Assembly (NCBI RefSeq): GCF_029714405.1
Contig: NZ_CP121650.1
Location: 7,259,001 to 7,323,000 of the forward strand
Reading direction: 5' to 3'
DNA from: Bradyrhizobium sp. CB82
GTDB lineage: Bacteria > Pseudomonadota > Alphaproteobacteria > Rhizobiales > Xanthobacteraceae
DNA: 64,000 nt
The first letter of the stretch is position 1. Every line of letters starts with the position of its first letter. The position numbers and the translations under genes were made by a program. Below the pieces are notes generated by a model. It was not told the DNA's origin, searched no databases, and saw nothing but the letters and a program-made list of their open reading frames with translations. Of this stretch, positions 21,186 to 36,157 are shown one piece after another.

Positions 21186-21818
21186 TTAGGGGGCAATATT
21201 GCAGGCCAAATGACACCGTGTCTTCCGACACTCCAACACTTCGCGGATCAAAGGCAGACGATCATTGCCAAAATACATATCGGTTCTGTCAATGAAGACT
21301 GTCGGCGATCCGAAGCCGCCGCGTGCGATTACCTCGTCTGTGTTGAGTCTGAGCTGATTCTTGACCGCCTCTTCGTTGATACTTCGGAAAAATTCCGCAG
21401 GATCGATGCTCACCTTCTTGCAAATGTTCGTCAGCACAGAATCCTGGGAGATGTCCTTGTCCTCACCCCAATAGGCTTCGAACACGGCAGTTGCGAACGG
21501 GACCATCCCGTCGCTGCCGAGCCAGACGCAGCCGCGCATCGCCCTTACGCTGTTCACCGGAAAGACCGTCGGTGGCATCTTGATCACAAGACCGGCCGAA
21601 CGAGCCCAATCGGCGAGATCTTTCAGCATGTACTGCGCTTTCGGCACGATCGGATTTTCGCGCGAGGCATAAACGCCCGGATTGACCGCATTAAAAATGC
21701 CGCCAGCCAGCACGGGCCGCCACGAAAGCGACTCGCCAAACTCCTTCGCCAATTTTTGAATGTTGTGGAAGGCGAGATAGGTCCACGGACTTGAGCAGTC
21801 GAAGAAAAACTCGATCAT
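21186..21818 (-). CDS. DsbA-like 2-hydroxychromene-2-carboxylate isomerase family protein
   Basis: A 210-residue thioredoxin-fold protein of the kappa-GST/HCCA isomerase group. It starts IEFFFDCSSPWTYLAF, where the Ser takes the place of the DsbA active-site Cys. FGSPTVFIDRTDMYFGNDRL near the C-terminus is the family glutathione-binding end. These enzymes use glutathione for isomerisation or detoxification. It is the last gene of the long amide operon, after a GST, with 85 bases between. A related gene is at 55070-55708. Confidence 0.75.
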   Translation of the reverse strand: MIEFFFDCSSPWTYLAFHNIQKLAKEFGESLSWRPVLAGGIFNAVNPGVYASRENPIVPKAQYMLKDLADWARSAGLVIKMPPTVFPVNSVRAMRGCVWLGSDGMVPFATAVFEAYWGEDKDISQDSVLTNICKKVSIDPAEFFRSINEEAVKNQLRLNTDEVIARGGFGSPTVFIDRTDMYFGNDRLPLIREVLECRKTRCHLACNIAP

Positions 21819-21903
21819 CGATCGTTACACTCACCATCTCTCCGGTACGCGATGCTGCGAGCCAGCATTTCGATCTTCACTCGCCAGAGGCCTCCATCGC
21901 CGT

Positions 21904-22599
21904 TCATTCCGTGACGACCCCGGATGCGCCGAACATGATTCGCTTTGCCTCGTCGGAGAACGGCTCTTTCACGAATTTGCCGACCGCAAGGCCGGCCTGC
22001 ACTTGCGGCCGTTCGCGAACTTCCGCATACCAGCGCTTTACGTTCGGGTAGTCGTCGAGTGTGAAACCTTGCGCCTTATGGGTCATCGTCCACGGGAAAC
22101 AGGCCATGTCGGCTATCGTGTATTCGTTGCCAGCGACAAAGCGCCCGGTCTTGCCCAATTGAGCGTCAAGCACACCATATAATCGCGTCGCCTCACGCTG
22201 ATAACGGTCAATCGCATACGGGATCTTCTCCGGCGCATAGAGACGGAAATGACCGTGCTGACCAAGCATCGGTCCAAGACCGCCCATCTGCCACATCACC
22301 CATTGGACAACCCGGGTACGGCCGCGCACATCCACTGGCAGAAAGCGTCCCGTCTTCTCTGCCAGGTAGATCAGGATAGCACCCGTCTCGAATACGGAGA
22401 TAGGCTCGCCACGGTCGGCCGGCGCGCGATCAACAATCGCTGGAATACGATTGTTCGGGCTGATGGCGAGAAACTCGGGCCTGAACTGCTCACCGGCGCG
22501 AATATCGATAGGAACGACAGTATACGGCAGCCCCAGTTCCTCAAGCAGAATCGAGATCTTCCAACCGTTAGGGGTCGGCGCGTAGTGCAAGTCAATCAT
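21904..22599 (-). CDS. Nu-class-like glutathione S-transferase
   Basis: A 231-residue GST close to the YfcG/Ure2p group. The N-terminal thioredoxin-like half has DLHYAPTPNGWKISILLEEL and SPNNRIPAIVDR, and the C-terminal helical half has NEYTIADMACFPW. YfcG-type enzymes act as glutathione-dependent disulfide reductases. The gene is transcribed with the dimethylformamidase genes, 106 bases after the first beta-subunit gene. It may protect against an electrophilic product such as formaldehyde or an amide oxidation product (inference). Confidence 0.78.
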   Translation of the reverse strand: MIDLHYAPTPNGWKISILLEELGLPYTVVPIDIRAGEQFRPEFLAISPNNRIPAIVDRAPADRGEPISVFETGAILIYLAEKTGRFLPVDVRGRTRVVQWVMWQMGGLGPMLGQHGHFRLYAPEKIPYAIDRYQREATRLYGVLDAQLGKTGRFVAGNEYTIADMACFPWTMTHKAQGFTLDDYPNVKRWYAEVRERPQVQAGLAVGKFVKEPFSDEAKRIMFGASGVVTE

Positions 22600-25104: not shown

Positions 25105-25470
25105 CTAGGTTTCGAGAAGGTCGCGGATGCAGCGCAGGAACAGGCCGTGACGGGCCTCGTTCGCGGATGTGTAGATGCCCGTATCAATCACACGCGGTGG
25201 AACTCCCCGACGCCCCGACAGCTTGACCACCTGATAACGGCGGAACGGCTCGATTGCTCTGACCGCATATCTTTCGTCGAGCGGTCGTTGACGGAAATAG
25301 ATCAACAGTCGCTCGAGCCTTTCGCTGTGCTGTCCCAGAGGCGACCGCCGGTGCTCTTCGATCACCTCGGGAGTCACGAGTGTCCGCAAAAACTCGCGGC
25401 GGCAGCCGTCGAACCGATCCCGGACGATGATGTCACGGTCCTGGGACCTGTCATACTCGAGAGGCAACAT
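25105..25470 (-). CDS. dmfA1: N,N-dimethylformamidase alpha (small) subunit-like
   Basis: A 121-residue protein resembling the dimethylformamidase small subunit (about 130 residues in known enzymes). It shows LVTPEVIEEHRRSPLGQHSE, RLLIYFRQRP, and LSGRRGVPPRVIDTGIY, then NEARHGLFLRCI. A strong GGAGAGTTGAGA ribosome-binding site lies before the ATG at 25470. The same block, with exactly the same length, forms the C-terminal end of the permease encoded at 27937-29586. It lies just upstream of beta-subunit copy A, the expected alpha-beta order. Confidence 0.82.
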   Translation of the reverse strand: MLPLEYDRSQDRDIIVRDRFDGCRREFLRTLVTPEVIEEHRRSPLGQHSERLERLLIYFRQRPLDERYAVRAIEPFRRYQVVKLSGRRGVPPRVIDTGIYTSANEARHGLFLRCIRDLLET

Positions 25471-25551: not shown

Positions 25552-27873
25552 TCATGCCCACTGCTTTTCCTCATTGACCCATGCGAACCCGGGTAATCTG
25601 CCGGCCCCCGCGAATGCCTCCACGACATTCGCCAGCACTCGGGATGCGCTGTTCCTGAAAGTGTTGATCGGCAGCGATTGCGCGAATGCGACCGAGCCAC
25701 ATGCAAACACGGCGCCGCCATGGGGGGCCGTGAAGTAGGTCATGTCGGCATGAACCCGCCAGTCGTACGACCCATAGAGCCCAAGGTAGGAATAGAGGAC
25801 GAGTTGCTGGTTCACGACATAGCTGTCCGTGTGGCCCCCTGACGAGGCGATGATCTTGGTGTGCGGCGGCGTGCCCAGAGCGCGGTCATAATAGTCGAGC
25901 GCCAGCCCCGCGGCGCCGTCATTGGCAAGACCGGCGTCACCGATGATCTCGCCATCGACACCTTTGGTGATCCAGGATACGGTGCGGTGATAGCTGTCCG
26001 GCATCCTCCGGTATGGTTCGCTTCGTCCACCGCCCGAGCTGCTCAGGCCTATGGCAACCAGCTTCTGGGTCGCCCGTCCGAGCACCTTCCAGGGACCACC
26101 ACGCATCCCGTCCGTTGCCATGTAGTGCTCGCCGTAACGTGACACCCACGGCTTGTACCCATCATCGCGACGTCGACATTCCATGATCCATGGTTCGCCG
26201 TCGCGAATGCCGGCCGTGGCGTTGAACCCGTTGCCGCCTGCATAGATGTAACGACCGCCGCCGGCGATATAATCCTCGGTCGCATCCAGCATTCGCTCGG
26301 TGTAGTATTCCGGGCGCGAGCCGCTGATAACGCATGCGTACGGCGACAACGCCTCCGACCCGTCGCGATGGAGGTCCTCGTCGGTCAGGACCTCGTACTC
26401 GAAGCCGCTCTGGTCCAGCCATGCGATGATCGATAGGTCCGCAGCCAATCCCGAAGCCACATCGAGGCTCGGCATCCTGTACCTCGGCCGCATGTTCATG
26501 ACCGGACGGTGATAGGAGCTGTAGCACACGCCAATGCCATCGGCGTGCATGTCGTATGTCGACAGCCCGAAATCGGCTCGCATATACATCTCGATGTCGA
26601 TATCGGACAGCACAGCCGGCTGTCCCGTCAAAGCTTCGCGCTCCGGGTGATCGAAGCTCAGGCGCTCGTTCGCAAAGGCAAGGTAGGTGAGTGTCGGAAA
26701 CAGGAATGCAATACGCGCCCGCGGCCTTCCCGGCCGCACGAAGAAGACGACATGCTCCTCGCTCACGCTCTTTCCCCAGCCAGATCGCAGCCTCATGGCA
26801 TAACAGCCGCTTTTGAGGCCGAGCGGCAGGGCGACGGTCTTGGTCGCCTTCCAATTGCAATCCGTCAGCGCGTCGGCATGAAACTCGATCCCCCCGAACT
26901 CTTGCGGAGCCAGACGGAAACAATCGGTGAAGCCGTCCCAGTTCCAGCCGGTCTGGCCGCGAACGGGCCGATTGTATCCTCGGGCATTCAGCTTGTGCCG
27001 GCCGACGTCGACCACGAGATCACCGATGCCGCGGTCGGTGTATCCAGCGCTCGTATCCCAGTACGCGACCAGGCTGTCCATCGCGGGTACGAGCCCGCTC
27101 CTGATCGTGTCGAGCTCGGCGGGCTGTAGGGCCTGGTCAAACGCGCCGCACCGGTCGATCTTGCCCCAATAGAGCTCCGACACGCACGTACGCTGTTGCG
27201 CGTCGCGGCTACGCGAACCTGCCATGAGAAACGGAGTTGAGTCCAGGCTGCCGGGCCTGCTCCGGAAGCCCGCAGATTTGCGGGATTCGTAGTCCACCAG
27301 CGCAACCTTGCCTAACAGGCCGTTGTACCTGTTGCCGACACCGACCTGGTGCAAGGTCGCACGCCGGGTCTCGGCATCGAAGGTCGCGGCCACGAAATAC
27401 CACATCTGCACCTGCAGCGGCACGTTGGCCGTCAGGCGCTCGATCTCTTCGCCGCGTCCGATCCAAAACTGCAGATAGCCTTTCTCGTCGATGCCGATCC
27501 CGTAGCCCTGCTTTCGATCGCCGTCCCATCGGCCGATTATGGTCTGCCGCTTTCCGGATGCTGGCCAAGTCGGGTGAACGAAGGCGAACAGAGTGAAGCT
27601 GTTTGCGAACGCCAGCCGCCCCTCGGGATCATCGACCTCGAGAAACGATCCTACCTGGGTGAACTGCGGCTCGACCCGCCACCTGCCGTTCGCGGCACAC
27701 GCCACCTGTTCCTCGACGAAGCCTGGTCCTGCTGGGTTCTGATCGCCATGGATCAGGCGCACCAGTTGCGCCTCAGCGGTATCCGTCCCCTCGGCGCTGA
27801 CATGAAACTGAATGGTCTCGCCCGGCTTGACCGAGATCCTGTCCGTGTAGCCAAAAAGTCTGACCGGTGTCAC
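25552..27873 (-). CDS. dmfA2: N,N-dimethylformamidase beta (large) subunit-like, copy B
   Basis: A 773-residue second beta subunit, clearly homologous to copy A along its whole length: LamG-like part TIIGRWDGDRKQGYGIGI, WYFVAATFDAETRR; catalytic domain from about residue 335. With the GTG start at 27873 the putative iron ligands align as Tyr440 (STYDMHADG) and Glu522 (RPEYYTER). The residue matching Tyr400 of copy A is Phe (TYLAFANE); a Tyr three residues earlier is kept. The start may also be GTG 27876 or TTG 27879; GGGAG precedes all three. Its alpha partner is most likely the domain fused to the permease encoded 63 bases upstream. Confidence 0.8.
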   Translation of the reverse strand: MTPVRLFGYTDRISVKPGETIQFHVSAEGTDTAEAQLVRLIHGDQNPAGPGFVEEQVACAANGRWRVEPQFTQVGSFLEVDDPEGRLAFANSFTLFAFVHPTWPASGKRQTIIGRWDGDRKQGYGIGIDEKGYLQFWIGRGEEIERLTANVPLQVQMWYFVAATFDAETRRATLHQVGVGNRYNGLLGKVALVDYESRKSAGFRSRPGSLDSTPFLMAGSRSRDAQQRTCVSELYWGKIDRCGAFDQALQPAELDTIRSGLVPAMDSLVAYWDTSAGYTDRGIGDLVVDVGRHKLNARGYNRPVRGQTGWNWDGFTDCFRLAPQEFGGIEFHADALTDCNWKATKTVALPLGLKSGCYAMRLRSGWGKSVSEEHVVFFVRPGRPRARIAFLFPTLTYLAFANERLSFDHPEREALTGQPAVLSDIDIEMYMRADFGLSTYDMHADGIGVCYSSYHRPVMNMRPRYRMPSLDVASGLAADLSIIAWLDQSGFEYEVLTDEDLHRDGSEALSPYACVISGSRPEYYTERMLDATEDYIAGGGRYIYAGGNGFNATAGIRDGEPWIMECRRRDDGYKPWVSRYGEHYMATDGMRGGPWKVLGRATQKLVAIGLSSSGGGRSEPYRRMPDSYHRTVSWITKGVDGEIIGDAGLANDGAAGLALDYYDRALGTPPHTKIIASSGGHTDSYVVNQQLVLYSYLGLYGSYDWRVHADMTYFTAPHGGAVFACGSVAFAQSLPINTFRNSASRVLANVVEAFAGAGRLPGFAWVNEEKQWA

Positions 27874-27936
27874 CACCAACTCCCTCGTTTACGAGCCCAA
27901 CGTCCGCCGCGCAGGACGGACACGCTTCATCCGTGA

Positions 27937-29586
27937 TCAGGACTCCAGCAGATCCTGAACGCGCCGCATGAAGACGCCGTGGCAGGCCTCATCCGGCGTC
28001 GCGTAGATCCGGTCCTCGACTACACGCGGCGCCACGCCGCGATGTCCGGATAGAGCGACGATGCGATAGCCTTCGAAGCGTTCCACGGCCATGATGGCGT
28101 ACTTCTCCACCTGAGGACGAGTGCGGAAGTAGATCAGCAGCCGTTCCAGCGCCTCACTGTGCTGCCCGTTGAGGGAATGGCGATGCTCCTCGATGATCTC
28201 CGGCGACACCAGCGTCTTGAGATGGTCGCGGGTCATCTTGTCGTGGCGCCGCTGGTAGATGACGCTCTTGTCGTCGGCCTCGGTCGCCTCCTCGGGTAGC
28301 ATCTCGCCGCCCTTCTCCGCTCGGGTCGATCGCCGCTCGCTCTTCTTCTTGTCGCGCCAGGCACGGAACTGCGCTTTGATCCCGAACAGCCCGTTGCGGA
28401 GGTAAAGCACGACCAGGAGCATGATGAGCCCGATGATCATGAAACGAGCCGGTCCCCACGTATTCAGCACCTGGTCGAAGAATACAACGATGAGGGTGCC
28501 GACCACCGCCCCTTCCGCACGTCCAACGCCACCGATCACCAGCATGGCGAGGCCGAGCAGCACGGTATCGAAGTTGAAGATCGAGAACGCCACGCCGCCG
28601 AAATTCGAGGTGTAGAATCCGCCGATGAAGCCCAGCGCCGCAGATGAGATGAGGAACACCCAGACGCGCGCCTGGCGAAAGTTGACTCCCGTCGCCTCGG
28701 CGAAGGCCTCGCGCTTTTCGGGCGCCATGCGAAGGATTCGTCCAAGCCTGCGGCCGTTGACGAACCGGTAGAGCAGCAACGCGAGCAGCATCAGGCCGAA
28801 GCAGGCGTAATACGCCAGGAGCAGCTGACCGAGCTGCGACCAGTCTTCCGGTATATAGGTCCTGGCGCCATACAGGCCGCCATTCGCGGACCCGAACTCC
28901 TTCGACGTCACGAAGTAGACCCGGCAGAGCTCGTTGAGCCCAAGGGTGAGAAGCGCATAATAGAATCCGTCGAGCCGCGTGGCCGGCAGCGCGATGATCC
29001 CGCCGAAGACCAGCCCTACCAGCGCGCCGATCGGCGGCAACAACCACCAGGGTAATGCGAACTTGACCGCAAGCAATGCCGTGACGAACGCGGCCGTCCC
29101 GACGACTGCATAGGTGGCGAGCGAAAAGACGCCCGCAGTGCCCATGATGAGCATCCAGCACAGACTGATGGCGGAATAGATGCCGAAGGTGGCTCCCGCC
29201 GTCAGCAGCGTGTTCTGCAGATCGCCGGGCGTGAACAGGGGAGCGATCGCCAGCGCAAGAAGCCCCAACATCCACCAGATCGGCCGCTTGTCGACGATCG
29301 TCTTCTCCGCGCGCAAGGTCTTTGGGTTATACTCCCCGCGCAGGCGAAGCACGCGGCGACGCGTCGGCCAGTAGCGAAGACGATTCCACATCGTTCCGCC
29401 GTGGCCTGGCCATTTGTAGTAGTAGCGAAGACGGCCGACGGCATTCAGCTTCGTCGCCGATCGACGAGTTCTTTCCCAGACCTCCTGGTGGCTGCGGAAC
29501 GGAATGGTCGGAAGCTCTTCGACGTCACGCTTGCCGCCCCAGACGAAGAGCGGATTGCGCCACTTGACGCCGCTATCAATTGACAT
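27937..29586 (-). CDS. LivM-type ABC permease fused to a dimethylformamidase alpha subunit
   Basis: One uninterrupted 549-residue frame. Residues 1-105 are a soluble, basic extension. About 105-410 are a LivM-like branched-chain-type permease (CWMLIMGTAGVFSLATYA, DGFYYALLTLGLNELCRVYF, MAPEKREAFAEATGVN). A Lys/Arg-rich linker (about 411-428) leads into residues 429-549, a complete dimethylformamidase alpha subunit (LVSPEIIEEHRHSLNGQHSE, RLLIYFRTRP, CHGVFMRRVQ). An internal ATG at 28302, after GGAGAAGGGCGGCGAG, could also yield the free 121-residue subunit. LivM members usually end near residue 330-420, so the fusion is real in sequence. The following gene is the matching beta subunit. Confidence 0.85.
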   Translation of the reverse strand: MSIDSGVKWRNPLFVWGGKRDVEELPTIPFRSHQEVWERTRRSATKLNAVGRLRYYYKWPGHGGTMWNRLRYWPTRRRVLRLRGEYNPKTLRAEKTIVDKRPIWWMLGLLALAIAPLFTPGDLQNTLLTAGATFGIYSAISLCWMLIMGTAGVFSLATYAVVGTAAFVTALLAVKFALPWWLLPPIGALVGLVFGGIIALPATRLDGFYYALLTLGLNELCRVYFVTSKEFGSANGGLYGARTYIPEDWSQLGQLLLAYYACFGLMLLALLLYRFVNGRRLGRILRMAPEKREAFAEATGVNFRQARVWVFLISSAALGFIGGFYTSNFGGVAFSIFNFDTVLLGLAMLVIGGVGRAEGAVVGTLIVVFFDQVLNTWGPARFMIIGLIMLLVVLYLRNGLFGIKAQFRAWRDKKKSERRSTRAEKGGEMLPEEATEADDKSVIYQRRHDKMTRDHLKTLVSPEIIEEHRHSLNGQHSEALERLLIYFRTRPQVEKYAIMAVERFEGYRIVALSGHRGVAPRVVEDRIYATPDEACHGVFMRRVQDLLES

Positions 29587-29589
29587 TGC

Positions 29590-30471
29590 TCAGGCCTCCC
29601 TCGCCTTGTCGAGCAGCCCGGCGATGCCGCGCGGACGGACCAAGAGGATGACGATGATCACAACGAACTGGGTGATGAGAACGTAGCGGCCGCCGATCGA
29701 TATGCCCGTCAGCGCCTCGTTCAGGCCGAGCACGATCGCCGCGATAACGGCGCCGCGCACGCTGCCCAGCCCGCCGCAAAGCGCAATGCTGACGCCCTTG
29801 ATCATCGGCATCAGTCCGCCGAACGGCGAAATATAGTAGGTTTGGGAGAGGAGAACGGCCGCGAGGCCCGCCAACCCGCCCGTGATGCCCATGACGTAAA
29901 ACGAGGTTCGCCGAACGCCGATGCCGACGATGGATGCCGCATGCGGATTCATCATCATGGCGCGGATTTCGAGGCCGCGGCGGCTCGACTGCATCCACCT
30001 CAGAACGACCGCCAATATCAGGACGGATGTCGCCACGTTCCCGACCTTGTCCGCGGTGAAGACCACACCCGGCAAGGACACCGACCAGTTGCCGAAGATT
30101 TCAGGCAGGCTCTTCGATCGCGGGCCGAACCACCAGAGCAGGAATTGCGTGCCGATCAGATTGATCGCGAGCGTCGCAATCAGACCCCGAATGGTGAAGT
30201 TTGGTTTGTCGTGGATCGGTATGAACCCAACCGCACAGATGACCACTCCCCCGAGCGCGCCTGCGAGGATACCCGCGGCCAGTACTGCAGGCCCCGATGT
30301 GGAGACATGCTGGGCAAACAGCCAGGCGCCATAGCCCGCGAATGCAAATATGAAGCCGTAGGCGAGGTTGAGCAGGCCGAGGCTCGACCACGTGATCGAA
30401 ATTCCGATCGCAAGCGTGCCGTAAATGCACGCAAGGACGATGGTGTTGCTGACGATGAACCAGATATCCAC
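29590..30471 (-). CDS. LivH-type ABC permease
   Basis: A 293-residue branched-chain amino-acid-type permease with about eight membrane segments. The features are SNTIVLACIYGTLAIGISIT at the N-terminus, the LRWMQSSRRGLEIRAMMMNP loop, and VSIALCGGLGSVRGAVIAAI near the C-terminus. It starts three bases from the ATPase stop, and the fused LivM gene follows three bases after its own stop. It pairs with the LivM part to form the membrane channel, probably for an amide or urea-like compound (inference from the neighbours). Confidence 0.87.
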   Translation of the reverse strand: MDIWFIVSNTIVLACIYGTLAIGISITWSSLGLLNLAYGFIFAFAGYGAWLFAQHVSTSGPAVLAAGILAGALGGVVICAVGFIPIHDKPNFTIRGLIATLAINLIGTQFLLWWFGPRSKSLPEIFGNWSVSLPGVVFTADKVGNVATSVLILAVVLRWMQSSRRGLEIRAMMMNPHAASIVGIGVRRTSFYVMGITGGLAGLAAVLLSQTYYISPFGGLMPMIKGVSIALCGGLGSVRGAVIAAIVLGLNEALTGISIGGRYVLITQFVVIIVILLVRPRGIAGLLDKAREA

Positions 30472-30474
30472 GTT

Positions 30475-31242
30475 TTACGCCTTTCGATAAACGTTCAACG
30501 CGAGTGCCGCCGAAGCCTCACCCTTGAGCTTTCCGACATGCATGCCGATGACGCGATCGACCCGTCCCTCGAGCAGCGCAACGTTCTGCTCCGCAATGAT
30601 CATCGCGGCATTCCCGAGCTTGACAGCCATCAGTGCGTTGATCACGCTCTTGCCGATCTTGGGTGCCAGCCCGAGCGATGGCTCGTCGACGAGGAAGAGC
30701 GACGCATCCGTCATCAGGCCGCGGCCGATCGACACCATGCGCCGTTCGCCGCCCGACAGGCGCCCCACGGGTACGCCCATCAGCTTCCGCAACGGTGGAA
30801 ATATCTCCAGGATGCGGAGCTTGCGCGCAGCGCGATCGCGCCAGGCCGCCGCGGTGTAGGCCCCGGAATCGAGATGCTCCTCGACGGTCAGGCCATGGAA
30901 GATCTCGTCGCCTTGAGGAATCAACGCCAATCCTGCGCGCACGATCTCGTGGGTGTAGCGCCCCGGCCCCTGGCTTCGCGTGCGACCGACCTCCCTGCCG
31001 TTCAGCTTGATCGAGCCGCGCTGCCAGCCGGTAAGTCCGGCGATTGCATAGAACAGGGTCGACTTGCCATGGCCATTCAAGCCGACGATGCCGATCCGCT
31101 CCCCACACTGAACGACGAGGTCGAGATCGTGGATGACGCGAACCGGCCCATAGCCTGCGGACAGTCGCTTGACGTTCAGGACCTCGCGCTGCGGCTGACG
31201 CGCCGGAGCGCCCGGCAAATGGTTGCTCACGGAGATATTCAT
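30475..31242 (-). CDS. LivF-type ABC ATPase
   Basis: A 255-residue ATPase. Walker A is GLNGHGKST, with His where Ala or Gly is commoner. The Q-loop is in ALIPQGDEIFHGLTVEEHL, the signature is LSGGERRMVSIGRGL, and Walker B is LFLVDEPSLGLAP. The LivF class is recognised by EEHL and PSLGLAP. Its ATG overlaps the stop of the LivG-type gene (ATGA). It works as a heterodimer with that protein. Confidence 0.88.
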   Translation of the reverse strand: MNISVSNHLPGAPARQPQREVLNVKRLSAGYGPVRVIHDLDLVVQCGERIGIVGLNGHGKSTLFYAIAGLTGWQRGSIKLNGREVGRTRSQGPGRYTHEIVRAGLALIPQGDEIFHGLTVEEHLDSGAYTAAAWRDRAARKLRILEIFPPLRKLMGVPVGRLSGGERRMVSIGRGLMTDASLFLVDEPSLGLAPKIGKSVINALMAVKLGNAAMIIAEQNVALLEGRVDRVIGMHVGKLKGEASAALALNVYRKA

Positions 31243-32015
31243 GCATCGGCCTCTTCGCTGAAATCCTCGAAGTAGGCCGCGTGGACCTTCGGGTCCGCCA
31301 TGACGTCGTCCATCAGCCCCTCGGAAATGACCTCCCCGGCATCCATTACCAGAATGCGGTCCGCGATCGTCCCGAGGAGCTCGATGCGGTGCTCGACGAT
31401 GAGGATCGCAATGTTCATTTCCTTGGCGAGGATCCGCAGCAGAGTATCGATCTCGTCGACCTCCGAATTGATCAGGCCGGCCGCCGGCTCATCCAGCAGC
31501 AGCAACGAGGGCCGGCGCATCAGCAGGCAGGCCAGCAGCAATTTGCGCCGGTTGAAGGTCTCGAGCTGCGTCGCCGGCGTATCGTCACTGATCTTCAGAC
31601 CGACGAGATCGGCGCCATATTCAGCATCGAACCTGGTGAGAAACGGACGATGAGCCTGACGCGCCGCCTTGAACGTCTCGCCGACGGTCAGTTCGTCAGG
31701 GACCACCGGCGTCTGGAACGTGCGGCCGATCCCCAGGCGCGAGCGGGAATACAACGGCAAGCCCGTAACATTCTCGCCCTTGAACCACACTGAGCCGCTC
31801 TTTGGCGGCATACGGCCAGAGAGGATTTCAAACAGACTGGTCTTGCCCGCGCCGTTCGGTCCGATGATGCCCAGCACTTCCCCGGCCTCAACATGCAGGT
31901 TGATATCGCGGAGGATCTCGCGACCGCCGAGATCGAGCGAGATGCCGCTGCAGGAGAACAGGGCGGCCTTTCCGCCCTGTTCAGCCGTACCGTTTCGTGA
32001 GAGTTGTCTGAGCAT
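31239..32015 (-). CDS. LivG-type ABC ATPase
   Basis: A 258-residue ATPase. Walker A is GPNGAGKTS, followed by LFEILSGRMPPKSG and the LivG-type QTPVVPDELTVGETF. The signature region is degenerate (LETFNRRKLLLACLLMRRP in place of a normal LSGGQ), while Walker B is intact (LLLLDEPAAGL). The ATG at 32015 overlaps the stop of the binding-protein gene (TGATG). GTGs at 32024 and 32027 are alternatives. The missing LSGGQ may weaken one ATP site of the LivFG pair. Confidence 0.85.
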   Translation of the reverse strand: MLRQLSRNGTAEQGGKAALFSCSGISLDLGGREILRDINLHVEAGEVLGIIGPNGAGKTSLFEILSGRMPPKSGSVWFKGENVTGLPLYSRSRLGIGRTFQTPVVPDELTVGETFKAARQAHRPFLTRFDAEYGADLVGLKISDDTPATQLETFNRRKLLLACLLMRRPSLLLLDEPAAGLINSEVDEIDTLLRILAKEMNIAILIVEHRIELLGTIADRILVMDAGEVISEGLMDDVMADPKVHAAYFEDFSEEADA

Positions 32016-33298
32016 CAGCTCCACCACGGCGCAGAGCTCAGCTTCGTTTCCGAGACCGGACCGGGATAGACGATCTTGTGCTCGCCACCCTGGATCTGGA
32101 CATAGAGCTGCGCGACGCCGGCCTCGAGCTTGCGCGCCTGCAATTCGTCCCCCCCATTGTCTGGGAAATGGAGCGCTTCCTGATATGGGTTGCCCATATC
32201 GACGTAGCCGCAGACGCCGCGTTGCGGGTTGGCCCGGATCCAGTCGCAGACCTCCCTGAACTTCCGGGGATCGCCGACCGCTTCCCAGGCCTTCTTGAGG
32301 TAGTAGGTCTGATCGTAGGCAATGCCGGTGTAGGCAAGCCCGGCAATGCCGGGGAAACGCTTCTTGTACTTCTGCCTGTAGGCGAGCCCCCTCTCGTCAC
32401 CATAGATGCCCATGGTCGTGCCCCAGACGAAGCCGTTCGCCGCCGAACCGGCAAGCTCGAGGAATTCCGGCTGCGAGGGGCCGTACTGAAGATAGACGAG
32501 CGAATCGCGCACCGGGCTTGCCACAAACTGTTTGCAGAAAGCGGCGTATTCAGCAGCCACCCAATGGTCCACCATGATCGCGGCGGCATCGACCTCCTTC
32601 ATCTCGCGAATGACCGGTGCCCAGTCCTGCACGGGATACTGGATATCCGTAATGCGGGCGACTTCGAACTTGCCGCGCCGCTTGATCGCTTCCTGGGCCG
32701 CACGCGATATCGTTTGGCAGTAACCGATCTGCTCCTGAATGATATGAACCTTGCGGTTCTTTGGTTTCCAGACGCCCCCCTGCTCCTGGTCTTCCAGCCA
32801 GAGAGCGTAGCTCCATCCATAGTTCACCTCAGACGGACAAAACTGGAAGATGTGGCTGTATTTATCCGGTTGCTCTTTCACGGCAGAGGTGCCGGCGCGT
32901 TGTGCGTTTCCGTTGATGTAGGGACATTTGTACTTCACGGTCGCGTCCATCGCCGGCAACGGGACGAGCGTAAAAGCAAAGGAGATCGCGTCGACCTTGG
33001 CGTCCACGCAGGCGGCAAGCGCCTGCTTGGAGGATTCCGGCGAAAGAACGTTCATGTCGGTTGTGAACAGCTTTAGCGGCCTCCCGAGGATGCCGCCTGC
33101 AGCATTGATCTCTTCCATCGCCAGCGTCGTGCCATTCAGGAAATCCTGATGATCCGCAACACCGGCAGCGGCCGTCTGACAGTAGGGAACGCCGAGAACG
33201 ATCGGCTGCGCCGCAAGCGCCGGCCGTCCAACGAATGGCGCAGCGATAGCCGCGCCGATGCCCGCAGTCACTGAACGCCTGGTGAGTCCCAAAACCAT
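32015..33298 (-). CDS. Liv/urea-type ABC solute-binding protein
   Basis: A 427-residue periplasmic binding protein with a twin-arginine-like signal (LTRRSVTAGIGAAIAAPFVG, cleavage near ALA). The mature protein has the type I two-domain fold: VLGVPYCQTAAAGVADHQ, then EEINAAGGILGRPLKLFTTD. It is nearer to the amide/urea-binding AmiC and UrtA-like group than to LivJ in overall look. A strong AGGAGG lies eight bases before the ATG at 33298. It is first in the operon that carries the permeases and the dimethylformamidase genes, so its ligand is probably the amide substrate (inference). Confidence 0.83.
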   Translation of the reverse strand: MVLGLTRRSVTAGIGAAIAAPFVGRPALAAQPIVLGVPYCQTAAAGVADHQDFLNGTTLAMEEINAAGGILGRPLKLFTTDMNVLSPESSKQALAACVDAKVDAISFAFTLVPLPAMDATVKYKCPYINGNAQRAGTSAVKEQPDKYSHIFQFCPSEVNYGWSYALWLEDQEQGGVWKPKNRKVHIIQEQIGYCQTISRAAQEAIKRRGKFEVARITDIQYPVQDWAPVIREMKEVDAAAIMVDHWVAAEYAAFCKQFVASPVRDSLVYLQYGPSQPEFLELAGSAANGFVWGTTMGIYGDERGLAYRQKYKKRFPGIAGLAYTGIAYDQTYYLKKAWEAVGDPRKFREVCDWIRANPQRGVCGYVDMGNPYQEALHFPDNGGDELQARKLEAGVAQLYVQIQGGEHKIVYPGPVSETKLSSAPWWS

Positions 33299-33493
33299 CT
33301 GAGTGACCTCCTGCAATCGCGCGCGTGGGTTCTCGGCATCGCAACCGAGACCGGCCGGATTTCATGTGAATGACGACGGCGCATCCATGCGACCGCCGGG
33401 TGATTGCGGCCCTGGACCTGCATCCGGATGACCGGACTGGTGAAGTACAGTCGAACCGCGCAATCGAAGCTTCGGTTTCCCGGCGATTTTCAG

Positions 33494-33936: not shown

Positions 33937-34972
33937 GTGAAATCGGCAGCGATCGACCATACGATGACAGCAGCAATACGGCTCGATACACCGGCGGCAG
34001 CCCTGAATGATCAGATCATTGATCAGGCAACGCAGGTAACCCGTCTGTTGCGCGAGTTCGTGAGGAGCGAGGCGATCGCCCTGGTCGCGATGGATCCGAT
34101 ATCCCGAACCCATCGCTTTCTGGCCGTCGACGGGTATACGGACAGAACGATGTCCTACGTGCTCGACGGATTCCCTAACTCATGCCCGGCTTACGCCATC
34201 GCGCGCGAGAAGGACACGCACTCACTGCGGTGGCGAGACTACAAGCGTGACTGGAATCTCAATTTGCCAGATACATTCACCGCTCAGGAATACCTGATGC
34301 CGGATGGATTCAGGGAAGGCTCGACGATGTGCCTGCGCGTCGCGGATGGCCGCTACATCGGGGCCATCCACATGAGCTGGTCCAAGGAGGCGCACGCCAA
34401 GGACGAGCACCGCGAGATGACGGAGCGCTTCCGCCCGATTCTGCTGAACATCTGCGATCAGCTCAGGACACCACAGCTTCTGGCCGATGAGCTGGCGCCA
34501 GGCGCCTACGCGATCGCGGTCTCGCCGAACGGTTTTGCATTTCACTTACCCAACCGCAGTCCGGGACCCCATCTCATCGAGGGCGGAGAGCTTCGTCGGC
34601 TCGTGCTGGAGAAGGCGAAGTCCGCCAGAGCTCAACGTTTCGTCTGGCCGGACGAGGCCGGCCGCTGCCACCAGGTCACGATCACGCCCTGCCGCGGAAA
34701 TATCCTCCTTATCACTGAGCAATGCATTCGCTGGCCGTATAATCTCTCGCTTCGGGAGATTCAGATCCTGCATCTCGTGACCAGTGGCGCTTCAAATCCC
34801 AACATCGCCGAGCAACTCTTCGTGTCGCCCCGCACGGTTTCCACGCATATCGAGCACATCCTCGAAGATGAGCTGCGACTCGCGCACGCGACTCGCGGCA
34901 CTTGCGGTGTCCGAAGGACTGCTGCTGGCGGAGTCCCCTTCCCGGCGGTCTCGGAACCTCGCCGGCCATTGA
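33937..34972 (+). pseudogene. LuxR-family regulator with a frameshift in the DNA-binding domain
   Basis: Residues 1 to about 260 form a GAF/autoinducer-like sensory part. The C-terminal LuxR helix-turn-helix is normal through LSLREIQILHLVTSGASNPN, IAEQLFVSPRTVSTHIEHIL. Immediately after (about 34862-34868) the frame goes off family. Translation in the next frame restores the expected last helix and tail (KMSCDSRTRLAALAVSEGLL, ending NLAGH at 34972). So two bases are missing, or one added. Read without correction the frame runs to 35214, across the end of the convergent MFS gene. A LuxR-type activator is known, as I recall, for dimethylformamidase genes in other degraders. The defect might be a sequencing error. 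Confidence 0.75.
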
Positions 34973-34987
34973 CGGGCCGCGACCACG

Positions 34988-36157
34988 TCAGCCGGATGGC
35001 GCGTCTTGCGCGGGCGCATCCCTCAGAAGCACCACGAGCCCCGCGGCCACGAGGCAGGCAAGGCCAACGCAGGCGAATCCGACCGCATAGGCTGCGAGAC
35101 CAAGGGCTCCGACCCCGGCAGAGGCAATCGTGGCTCCTGCCAGGTGTGCGACCGTCATCCAGCCCATCGCTCTGCCGACGCGGCACATGCCGAGATTTCC
35201 GGACATCAGCCTGATGAGCGCAGGAAACGTCAGTGCCGCATCGAGGCCATAGAGCGCGCCGAACCGGGCCAATTCGACAACGCTGAAGCCGGTAAACGGA
35301 AGCCAAAGCAAGAGGAGCGCGCGGAGCACGAAATAGACCGCCAGCAGCGTTTGCGCGGGATAACGATCCGCGAGATATCCGCTCACCGTGCTTCCGATCG
35401 CGCCGCCGATCACAACGATGGCCATTACGTCGGCGCTCGACGAGAGGCTGAGGCCCGCGCCCATGCAGAGCATACCGAGCCGGCCGTCGATCAAGCCAGA
35501 TGTCGACGCGCCGCAGATGCAGAAGACCGTTGCCAGGGCCCAGAACCGCCAGTTCTTCCCCGTTGGACACGGTGACGCGTATCGGTTGGGCTTGGGCTTC
35601 TGTGGAGTGGCTCCTCGTCCGGATGCAGGGACAAGAGCGACTGCGAAGGCCGTGGCCAGCACGCCGACGGCGGCGGCCTGGAACACGAAGCACCAATCGA
35701 GCGCACTGACCGCGCGCGATGCCACCAGCAGTCCCGCCGCCGATCCCAGCAACTGCATCGACGCCAGGAGACCGGAGCGTGTGCCGCAATGCGACGCGTC
35801 GCCACGACTCCCGACTATCGCGCCTAGAAGGGAGGCGCTCAAAGAGCCACTGAATCCAACGCCCAGTCCCCAGGCCACAGCGAGGTGCCATGGCGACGTC
35901 GCGCGCGTCGTCGATGCAAGCGATAGCGCAAGGAGAACCAGGCTGGCGACCAGCGGCGATCGAACGCCCCATCGTTCGAGGCCATGCGCCGCGAACGGCG
36001 ATGCGCATGCGGAGACTGCGACGCCGAGCGTAATCGGCCAGGCCACGTCGGAGGTTTGCCACCCCAGGTCCTGCTGGATGGGGACGGCCAGCAACGCGGG
36101 GAGGACGCGCGCGGCCGAGCCTGCAAAGATCGCGAAAGCGAAGATTGCAGAGGTCAT
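34988..36157 (-). CDS. Major facilitator superfamily transporter
   Basis: A 389-residue MFS protein with about 12 hydrophobic segments, starting MTSAIFAFAIFAGSAARV. PITLGVAVSACASPFAAHGL leads into the first cytoplasmic loop, and GGAIGSTVSGYLADRYP is the equivalent loop of the second half. Longer in-frame starts exist up to 36340, but they add a non-hydrophobic Arg-rich stretch and were not used. The ribosome-binding site is weak. It is convergent with the LuxR gene and 100 bases downstream of the amine oxidase gene on the same strand. It may carry an amine or an acid of the pathway. Confidence 0.75.
   Translation of the reverse strand: MTSAIFAFAIFAGSAARVLPALLAVPIQQDLGWQTSDVAWPITLGVAVSACASPFAAHGLERWGVRSPLVASLVLLALSLASTTRATSPWHLAVAWGLGVGFSGSLSASLLGAIVGSRGDASHCGTRSGLLASMQLLGSAAGLLVASRAVSALDWCFVFQAAAVGVLATAFAVALVPASGRGATPQKPKPNRYASPCPTGKNWRFWALATVFCICGASTSGLIDGRLGMLCMGAGLSLSSSADVMAIVVIGGAIGSTVSGYLADRYPAQTLLAVYFVLRALLLLWLPFTGFSVVELARFGALYGLDAALTFPALIRLMSGNLGMCRVGRAMGWMTVAHLAGATIASAGVGALGLAAYAVGFACVGLACLVAAGLVVLLRDAPAQDAPSG

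Follow-up and report, generated by a model that had tools for sequence, protein, structure and literature searches.

The dimethylformamidase (DMFase) of Paracoccus (DmfA1/DmfA2; structure 6LVB) is, according to the available text of PMC7686228, an alpha2beta2 enzyme or a dimer of that assembly, in which the large subunit has no activity by itself and the N-terminal helix of the small subunit, alpha, wedges between two large subunits; the mutants H519A and Y440A are inactive as well. Alpha is a free protein there, and the main text of that paper makes no mention of a permease, a transporter, a fusion, or a membrane. The operon of Bradyrhizobium sp. CB82 considered here shares with the Paracoccus enzyme the fold of alpha, the family of the large subunit (beta) and, in one of its two large subunits (beta2), the Fe ligands Y399, Y440, and E521 along with H519 and N547 (DMFase numbering), but its alpha is fused to the permease of an importer. 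The importers to be compared with it are those of the Liv/Urt type, for branched-chain amino acids, urea, or short-chain amides, which have the same gene set and permeases of the BPD_transp_2 family. A Liv-type importer has one LivM-like chain. The permease of CB82 differs from these in falling far below the curated NCBIfam cut-offs for LivM (score 55.1 against 366) and UrtC (48.9 against 296.2) and in carrying alpha at its C-terminus and an extension of about 100 residues at its N-terminus. To our knowledge, no ABC importer has been described whose permease incorporates a subunit of the corresponding catabolic enzyme. The earlier note on this DNA considered such a fusion undescribed. No paper on a DMFase-permease fusion was found in the open-access literature searched, yet the databases already contain many such proteins.

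The window (the whole stretch of DNA analyzed, 64,000 nucleotides) holds the complete gene set of a HAAT (Liv/Urt-type) importer in one operon, i.e., a pair of BPD_transp_2 permeases, two ATPases, and a Peripla_BP_6 substrate-binding protein (SBP). The order of transcription is SBP, two ATPases, LivH-like permease, fusion, beta1, free alpha, beta2, glutathione-transferase-like gene, DsbA-like gene. The features are as follows.

27937..29586, minus strand: Liv/Urt-type permease fused to DMFase alpha (small) subunit, 549 aa
28411..29193, minus strand: permease domain of the fusion, residues 132-392 (Pfam BPD_transp_2, E 4e-25)
28303..28374, minus strand: conserved basic linker, residues 405-428, which appears to carry a former ribosome-binding site (from the alignment)
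28300..28317, minus strand: apparently decayed internal initiation site, residues 424-429, GAG AAG GGC GGC GAG ATG
27940..28302, minus strand: fused alpha domain, residues 429-549, 121 aa (sequence and fold match)
25552..27879, minus strand: beta1, DMFase large-subunit paralogue with a degenerate active site (Y399F, H519R); its TTG start is a mechanical call
25105..25470, minus strand: free alpha subunit gene, 121 aa
22706..25045, minus strand: beta2, DMFase large subunit, five tested active-site residues intact
29590..30471, minus strand: second permease, LivH/UrtB-like
30475..31242, minus strand: ABC ATPase, LivF/UrtE-like
31239..32027, minus strand: ABC ATPase, LivG/UrtD-like
32015..33316, minus strand: periplasmic substrate-binding protein, Peripla_BP_6
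33937..34863, plus strand: divergent LuxR-type regulator, the part aligned in relatives; helix-turn-helix interrupted in CB82
21186..22599, minus strand: glutathione-transferase-like and DsbA-like genes, 3' of beta2

The fusion gene is a single frame of 549 codons with no internal stop. Residues 437-546 match the Paracoccus small subunit (6lvb_B) by sequence (E 1.5e-9), and 6lvb_B is also the best PDB match to the AlphaFold model of the whole chain (E 2e-4, TM 0.78 on the target), a model with a mean pLDDT of 72 in which the linker has low confidence. The fused alpha is exactly as long as the free one, as had been claimed for it. Residues K413, K414, S416, E417, R419, R422, K425, G426, and G427 of the linker are invariant in 38 aligned rows. 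The N-terminal extension (residues 1-101; 29284-29586, minus strand) is conserved, rich in W, R, and Y, and without a match in Pfam; it may also be part of the docking discussed below.

A search of proteins with the fusion gave 821 matches, of which the best 120 align over 86-100% of the query. Within these best 120, 117 are 542-565 aa in length and three are 471, 497, and 523 aa; each has PF26354 as a second, precomputed Pfam domain, and those with visible names are named as permeases. In a scan of species genomes, the best 80 of 101 relatives represent 79 distinct loci, all running into alpha. The fusion was found in 2/385 genomes sampled from the class, 3/398 from the phylum, 21/265 from the genus, and 14/296 from the family (the samples overlap, and each count takes in CB82's own genome), so it is rare overall but widespread; it is also present in 2/150 genomes of the family of genome G707. 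Altogether, permease and alpha lie in one frame in 111 loci, from alpha-, beta-, and gammaproteobacteria, of which 14 were dropped as duplicates to leave 97 distinct loci (loci with short flanks were omitted where the same place, judged by coordinates, was present as a longer locus). In L066 and L083 the contig ends inside alpha. The earlier note had suggested looking for a stop or frameshift between the two parts and for the same fusion in other genomes: CB82 has no such interruption, and the frame is open in 97/97 loci, which rules out an assembly artefact or frameshift as the source of the fusion. No split permease and alpha were found among the 97 loci (the best 80 of 101 scan relatives included), with search thresholds that would have passed a close permease lacking alpha. 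Nor was alpha found fused to other types of protein among the best 120 of 305 matches, all of which also had the permease domain, in a search that admitted proteins of about 300-960 aa. To judge from these comparisons of sequence, the permease-alpha fusion is real and a member of a conserved family.

The surroundings of the fusion are conserved too. Homologues of LivH, LivF, LivG, and SBP lie upstream in 96, 92, 91, and 90 of the 97 loci, and a gene for a DMFase large subunit follows in 90/90 loci with readable downstream sequence, in L046 and L146 after about 1.3 kb. In L090 (G707), a frame that by eye looks like an outer-membrane porin comes after the fusion, with beta about 1.3 kb further on (L122). 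We take this frame to resemble FmdC of formamide operons. In L054, the record is labelled Oceanobacillus, and the operon falls inside an alphaproteobacterial clade; the record is probably mislabelled or the assembly contaminated.

The loci may be grouped by their supply of alpha. In 58 of them, the operon shows no alpha besides the fused one (no-free loci, those of Methylopila, Methylocella, and Methylobacillus among them); five loci (none_adj_only) end inside beta or less than 500 bases after it and could have a free alpha further on, and 7/97 loci, whose sequence stops no more than 136 bases from the fusion, were left unclassified. A separate alpha gene (with-free loci) lies between fusion and beta in 15 loci (alpha-between) and after beta in 16 (alpha-after-beta, CB82's group). 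A gene for a LuxR-type regulator (33937-35214, plus strand, in CB82) is near the operon in 16/16 alpha-after-beta loci (E<=1e-8, L120 aside), divergent and upstream in 15 of the 16, and in 0/81 other loci, some of them short. The helix-turn-helix of the CB82 regulator is out of frame near the C-terminus, unlike those of L009, L012, and L014. In Paracoccus, DMFase genes are activated by DmfR, a regulator of the LuxR family, according to the available text of PMC4543880. The glutathione-transferase-like and DsbA-like genes after beta2 are also found in L009, L010, L012, L014, and L075 and perhaps provide a downstream step for the product of the enzyme.

The beta gene next to the fusion had been taken as the matching subunit. 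It proves to be a degenerate paralogue: beta1 lacks one iron ligand and the catalytic His (Y399F and H519R), whereas beta2 keeps all five residues tested, among them the 2-Tyr-1-Glu Fe site and the catalytic His. An alignment of 87 betas contains 72 with all five residues, 12 that are degenerate, two that end before N547, and one too short to read; 11 other full-length betas in a supplementary set are intact. All 12 degenerate betas in that alignment come from operons with two betas, and one intact beta is paired with one degenerate beta in 16/16 two-beta operons (L113-L116 included). The residues affected are not always the same. In CB82-type operons, it is the first beta that is altered, Y399 being replaced by F (or L) and H519 by R, and in L015, L016, L018, and L116, the second beta has C for Y440. 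On a tree of betas (without L113-L116), the degenerate sequences form one clade (SH-aLRT 99) beside an intact clade (96), which argues for one duplication and then different losses.

The linker appears to have a second function, at the level of DNA. Codon 429 or 430 is a start codon in 58/58 no-free loci (ATG in 54, GTG in 4), and the internal product predicted from it is 120-122 aa long in all 58. Where M429 has been replaced in some no-free lineages (Limnohabitans, Rhodocyclaceae, and others), the start lies one codon on, with the purine run kept upstream. The peptide EKGGE-M is written GAG AAA GGA GGC GAR ATG in 14/58 no-free loci and in variants of this in the rest. AGAAAGG occurs in the leader of 38/58 no-free loci, as against 1/32 with-free loci, and the full AGAAAGGAGG occurs in 18/58 no-free loci; the 3' end of 16S rRNA in the CB82 genome is CACCTCCTTTCT, whose CCTTTCT is complementary to AGAAAGG. 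K425 is AAA in 48/52 no-free loci compared with 3/32 with-free loci. AAA makes up 77/435 instances at 8 other conserved Lys sites of no-free loci, Lys 495 alone reaching 31/58, and at most of the other Lys sites it is a scattered minority on the tree, so the pattern at K425 is not plain inheritance. G426 is GGA in 31/58 no-free and 0/32 with-free loci, with a median of 7% over 37 Gly sites. By z-scores that treat rows as independent and serve as ranks only, K425 and G426 take the top two places for synonymous bias among 241 conserved-amino-acid sites, and the Ser sites 477 (far from the start) and 416 (upstream of it) are nearly as strongly biased. The 12-codon stretch of lowest GC3 is 422-433, with 0.51 against a gene mean of 0.84; its value in with-free loci is 0.80. 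Because the top two synonymous biases and the stretch of lowest GC3 coincide at this place, a start by chance is ruled out for the relatives; the site of CB82 itself stands outside this claim.

The pairing energy of the leader separates the groups only on average: the mean is -13.7 kcal/mol in no-free loci and -11.5 and -9.8 kcal/mol in the with-free groups (L120 counted as with-free), but the value is -12.2 kcal/mol or weaker in 26/53 no-free loci and -11.6 in many with-free loci. Synonymous shuffles of single loci gave p<0.05 for the pairing energy in 5/47 loci, and a loose motif (AAAGG, GGAGG, or GGGGG) is present also in 9/15 loci without the start. L120 was counted as with-free in the start, codon, leader-motif, and independent-pairs counts, which brings these to 17 alpha-after-beta and 32 with-free rows; it was excluded from the with-free loci for dN/dS and for the biases at 241 sites and was taken as no-free in the five-gene and Lys-state trees.

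Where a separate alpha gene exists, the internal site is different. No alpha-between locus has the ATG (0/15), residue 429 being Ala in 14 of them, as in genes of the Roseovarius type, and Val (GTG) in L058. The alpha-after-beta loci keep ATG in 13/16 cases (it is lost in L009, L010, and L016), and their codon 425 is AAG in 16/16; in L009 and L010, close sisters of CB82, the start has become ATC and CTG, respectively. CB82 has the ATG, preceded by AAG GGC GGC where relatives have AAA GGA GGC, and its site looks like a decayed form of one that is strong in relatives. The earlier note had proposed that the ATG at 28302, with its purine-rich leader, might yield a free subunit and hence two products from one gene. 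The leader is indeed rich in purines, and two products are likely for the family, considering the starts in 58/58 loci and the codon bias; for CB82, where the site looks decayed, the proposal lacks support in the form in which it was made. Since the internal ribosome site appears decayed and the start is lost in L009 and L010, the free alpha of CB82 would most likely come from 25105-25470.

At E<=1e-6, alpha is found twice in the CB82 genome (10.1 Mb), in the fusion and at 25105-25470; the nearest named relatives of this genome are Bradyrhizobium. Free alphas of other loci are 109-128 aa long, with starts picked by script, and in several free alpha genes the first residue corresponds to that of the internal start (MLPLEY in CB82, MLPED in L057). 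The fused alpha is the sole alpha at E<=1e-6 in 18/30 distinct no-free genomes searched whole (13/16 and 6/15 in two sets with one genome in common, some assemblies being incomplete). The other 12 hold further alpha-like sequence, mostly distant (39-60 bits); the genome of L024 has a further alpha scoring 120 bits, G852 has a second fusion gene, and L120 has a remnant of a fusion. This last locus at first sight contradicts the rule, as it has a free alpha along with an intact internal site, but what passes for a "free alpha" there is all that remains, at the 3' end, of another fusion gene, with a fragment of beta after it. The intact fusion operon of L120 (G784) adjoins the remnant, and the sequence before the remnant looks by eye like a tRNA gene, which suggests the remnant of a mobile island.

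How often separate alpha genes arose bears on what their correlation with the start can say. A permease tree calls for two changes in the presence of free alpha, one of them L120. A five-gene tree calls for two without L120, although the AU test does not reject a single clade (p 0.161, L017 and L066 being placed in the group); the beta tree separates the two with-free groups. Many independent losses are unsupported by these trees, with their approximately two changes, and the correlation between start and free alpha therefore rests on few events; a test by independent pairs finds two pairs only. A separate gene does not seem to have released the fused copy. Although dS is often near saturation in the pairs compared, the median dN/dS of the fused alpha is 0.18 in alpha-between (66 pairs), 0.11 in alpha-after-beta (94), and 0.12 in no-free loci (237), and that of the permease is 0.19, 0.08, and 0.18, in the same order. 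These values indicate that the fused alpha is kept under purifying selection where a free alpha gene exists.

In our view, the large subunits are likely to associate with alpha of both kinds, tethered and free, so that the enzyme is docked on the importer to which it belongs; in relatives, the free alpha would be supplied by the internal start. The operon would then couple a Liv/Urt-type small-molecule ABC importer physically to an iron amidohydrolase of the DMFase kind, one alpha being attached, through the conserved linker, to the C-terminus of the LivM-like permease. A second, free alpha would be needed because the enzyme is alpha2beta2 and the transporter carries one LivM; with one LivM per importer, an enzyme supplied with tethered alpha only would either have an empty second half or bridge two importers. 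Most relatives would make free alpha by internal initiation at codon 429 or 430, using a ribosome-binding site embedded in the codons of the linker. The supply would have passed to a separate alpha gene in two groups, where the internal site would have decayed or lost its start. In CB82, the gene at 25105-25470 would provide free alpha, and the large subunits would have split into the intact beta2 and the degenerate beta1. The tether to the importer, proposed already in the earlier note, is the likely role of the fused alpha, and one enzyme dimer would likely sit under one importer, so placed that an imported amide could be channelled to it and cut on arrival. The substrate may be a DMF-like amide, to judge by the enzyme family and by the methylotrophs among the hosts (from record titles). 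A tentative and somewhat unlikely elaboration is that the built-in enzyme is asymmetric, one alpha2beta2 per transporter with one half tethered and one free, in which, within CB82's group, beta1 docks, senses, or gates while beta2 cuts, the alphas coming from one dual-coding gene and later from two genes.

Perhaps only the long fused protein is made, and the codons that resemble a ribosome site slow the ribosome during insertion into the membrane, or are a relic. The linker peptide KKKSERRSxRxEKGGE is largely kept even in loci without the internal start, and an amino-acid constraint must therefore be real there; the single-locus shuffles are also weak. A pause, however, needs no start codon, yet one is present in every no-free locus, and in some lineages the start has moved by a codon together with the upstream purine run. 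The signal moreover fades in loci with a free alpha gene, and an alpha2beta2 enzyme built from fused alpha alone would presumably bridge two transporters, all of which makes this reading quite improbable. Still harder to believe is the converse, that only free alpha matters and the permease reads into alpha by overlap of genes, leaving the fused copy functionless. The internal start is well conserved, two groups have free alpha genes, and in CB82's group the fused alpha has diverged faster relative to the permease (ratio 1.68, against 0.90 in no-free loci), as one might expect of such a copy. But it is under purifying selection just where the free gene is present and the internal start lost (0.18 and 0.11), the linker remains conserved, and not one of the 97 loci, which take in the best 80 of 101 scan relatives, has permease and alpha split.

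Alternatively, the enzyme on the importer, or just the half with the degenerate beta1, might gate the importer or sense for it rather than receive its substrate. The retention of an intact and a degenerate beta in 16/16 two-beta operons, inactivated differently in two subgroups, would suit such a function, and in MthK, regulation of the pore is ascribed to the RCK domains, fused and free (PMC2920069, in its available text). Single-beta operons, on the other hand, keep every readable catalytic residue, so catalysis is the common feature, and we regard gating as unlikely. The docking of an active enzyme by tethered and free alpha together is the reading we prefer.

If that reading is true, the family would offer a natural importer-enzyme complex that draws tethered and free subunits from one gene by way of a ribosome site hidden in coding sequence, and also a model for the rise of paired active and degenerate subunits after duplication. 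Parts of this arrangement are found elsewhere. Aspartokinase LysC of Bacillus and Corynebacterium obtains two subunits from one gene through an internal in-frame start, but LysC is a soluble enzyme and involves no transporter. Small subunits of the Cas11 type have separate genes in CRISPR subtypes other than that of Cas11b. Cas11b is itself a small subunit translated from an internal in-frame start inside cas8b, the gene of a larger subunit (PMC11899642, available text), in this case for a soluble CRISPR complex with no membrane protein. Closest in logic is MthK, a membrane protein with a fused C-terminal domain and a free copy of it from the same frame: the proposal in the available text of PMC2920069 is that translation from an internal Met yields a free RCK domain, which assembles with the fused RCK domains, and contrary results for Kch are cited alongside. 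MthK, however, is an archaeal channel and the domain is regulatory, whereas here a subunit of an enzyme is carried on an ABC importer, and the fusion family has in addition a ribosome site apparent at the level of DNA and, in some lineages, separate genes for the free subunit.
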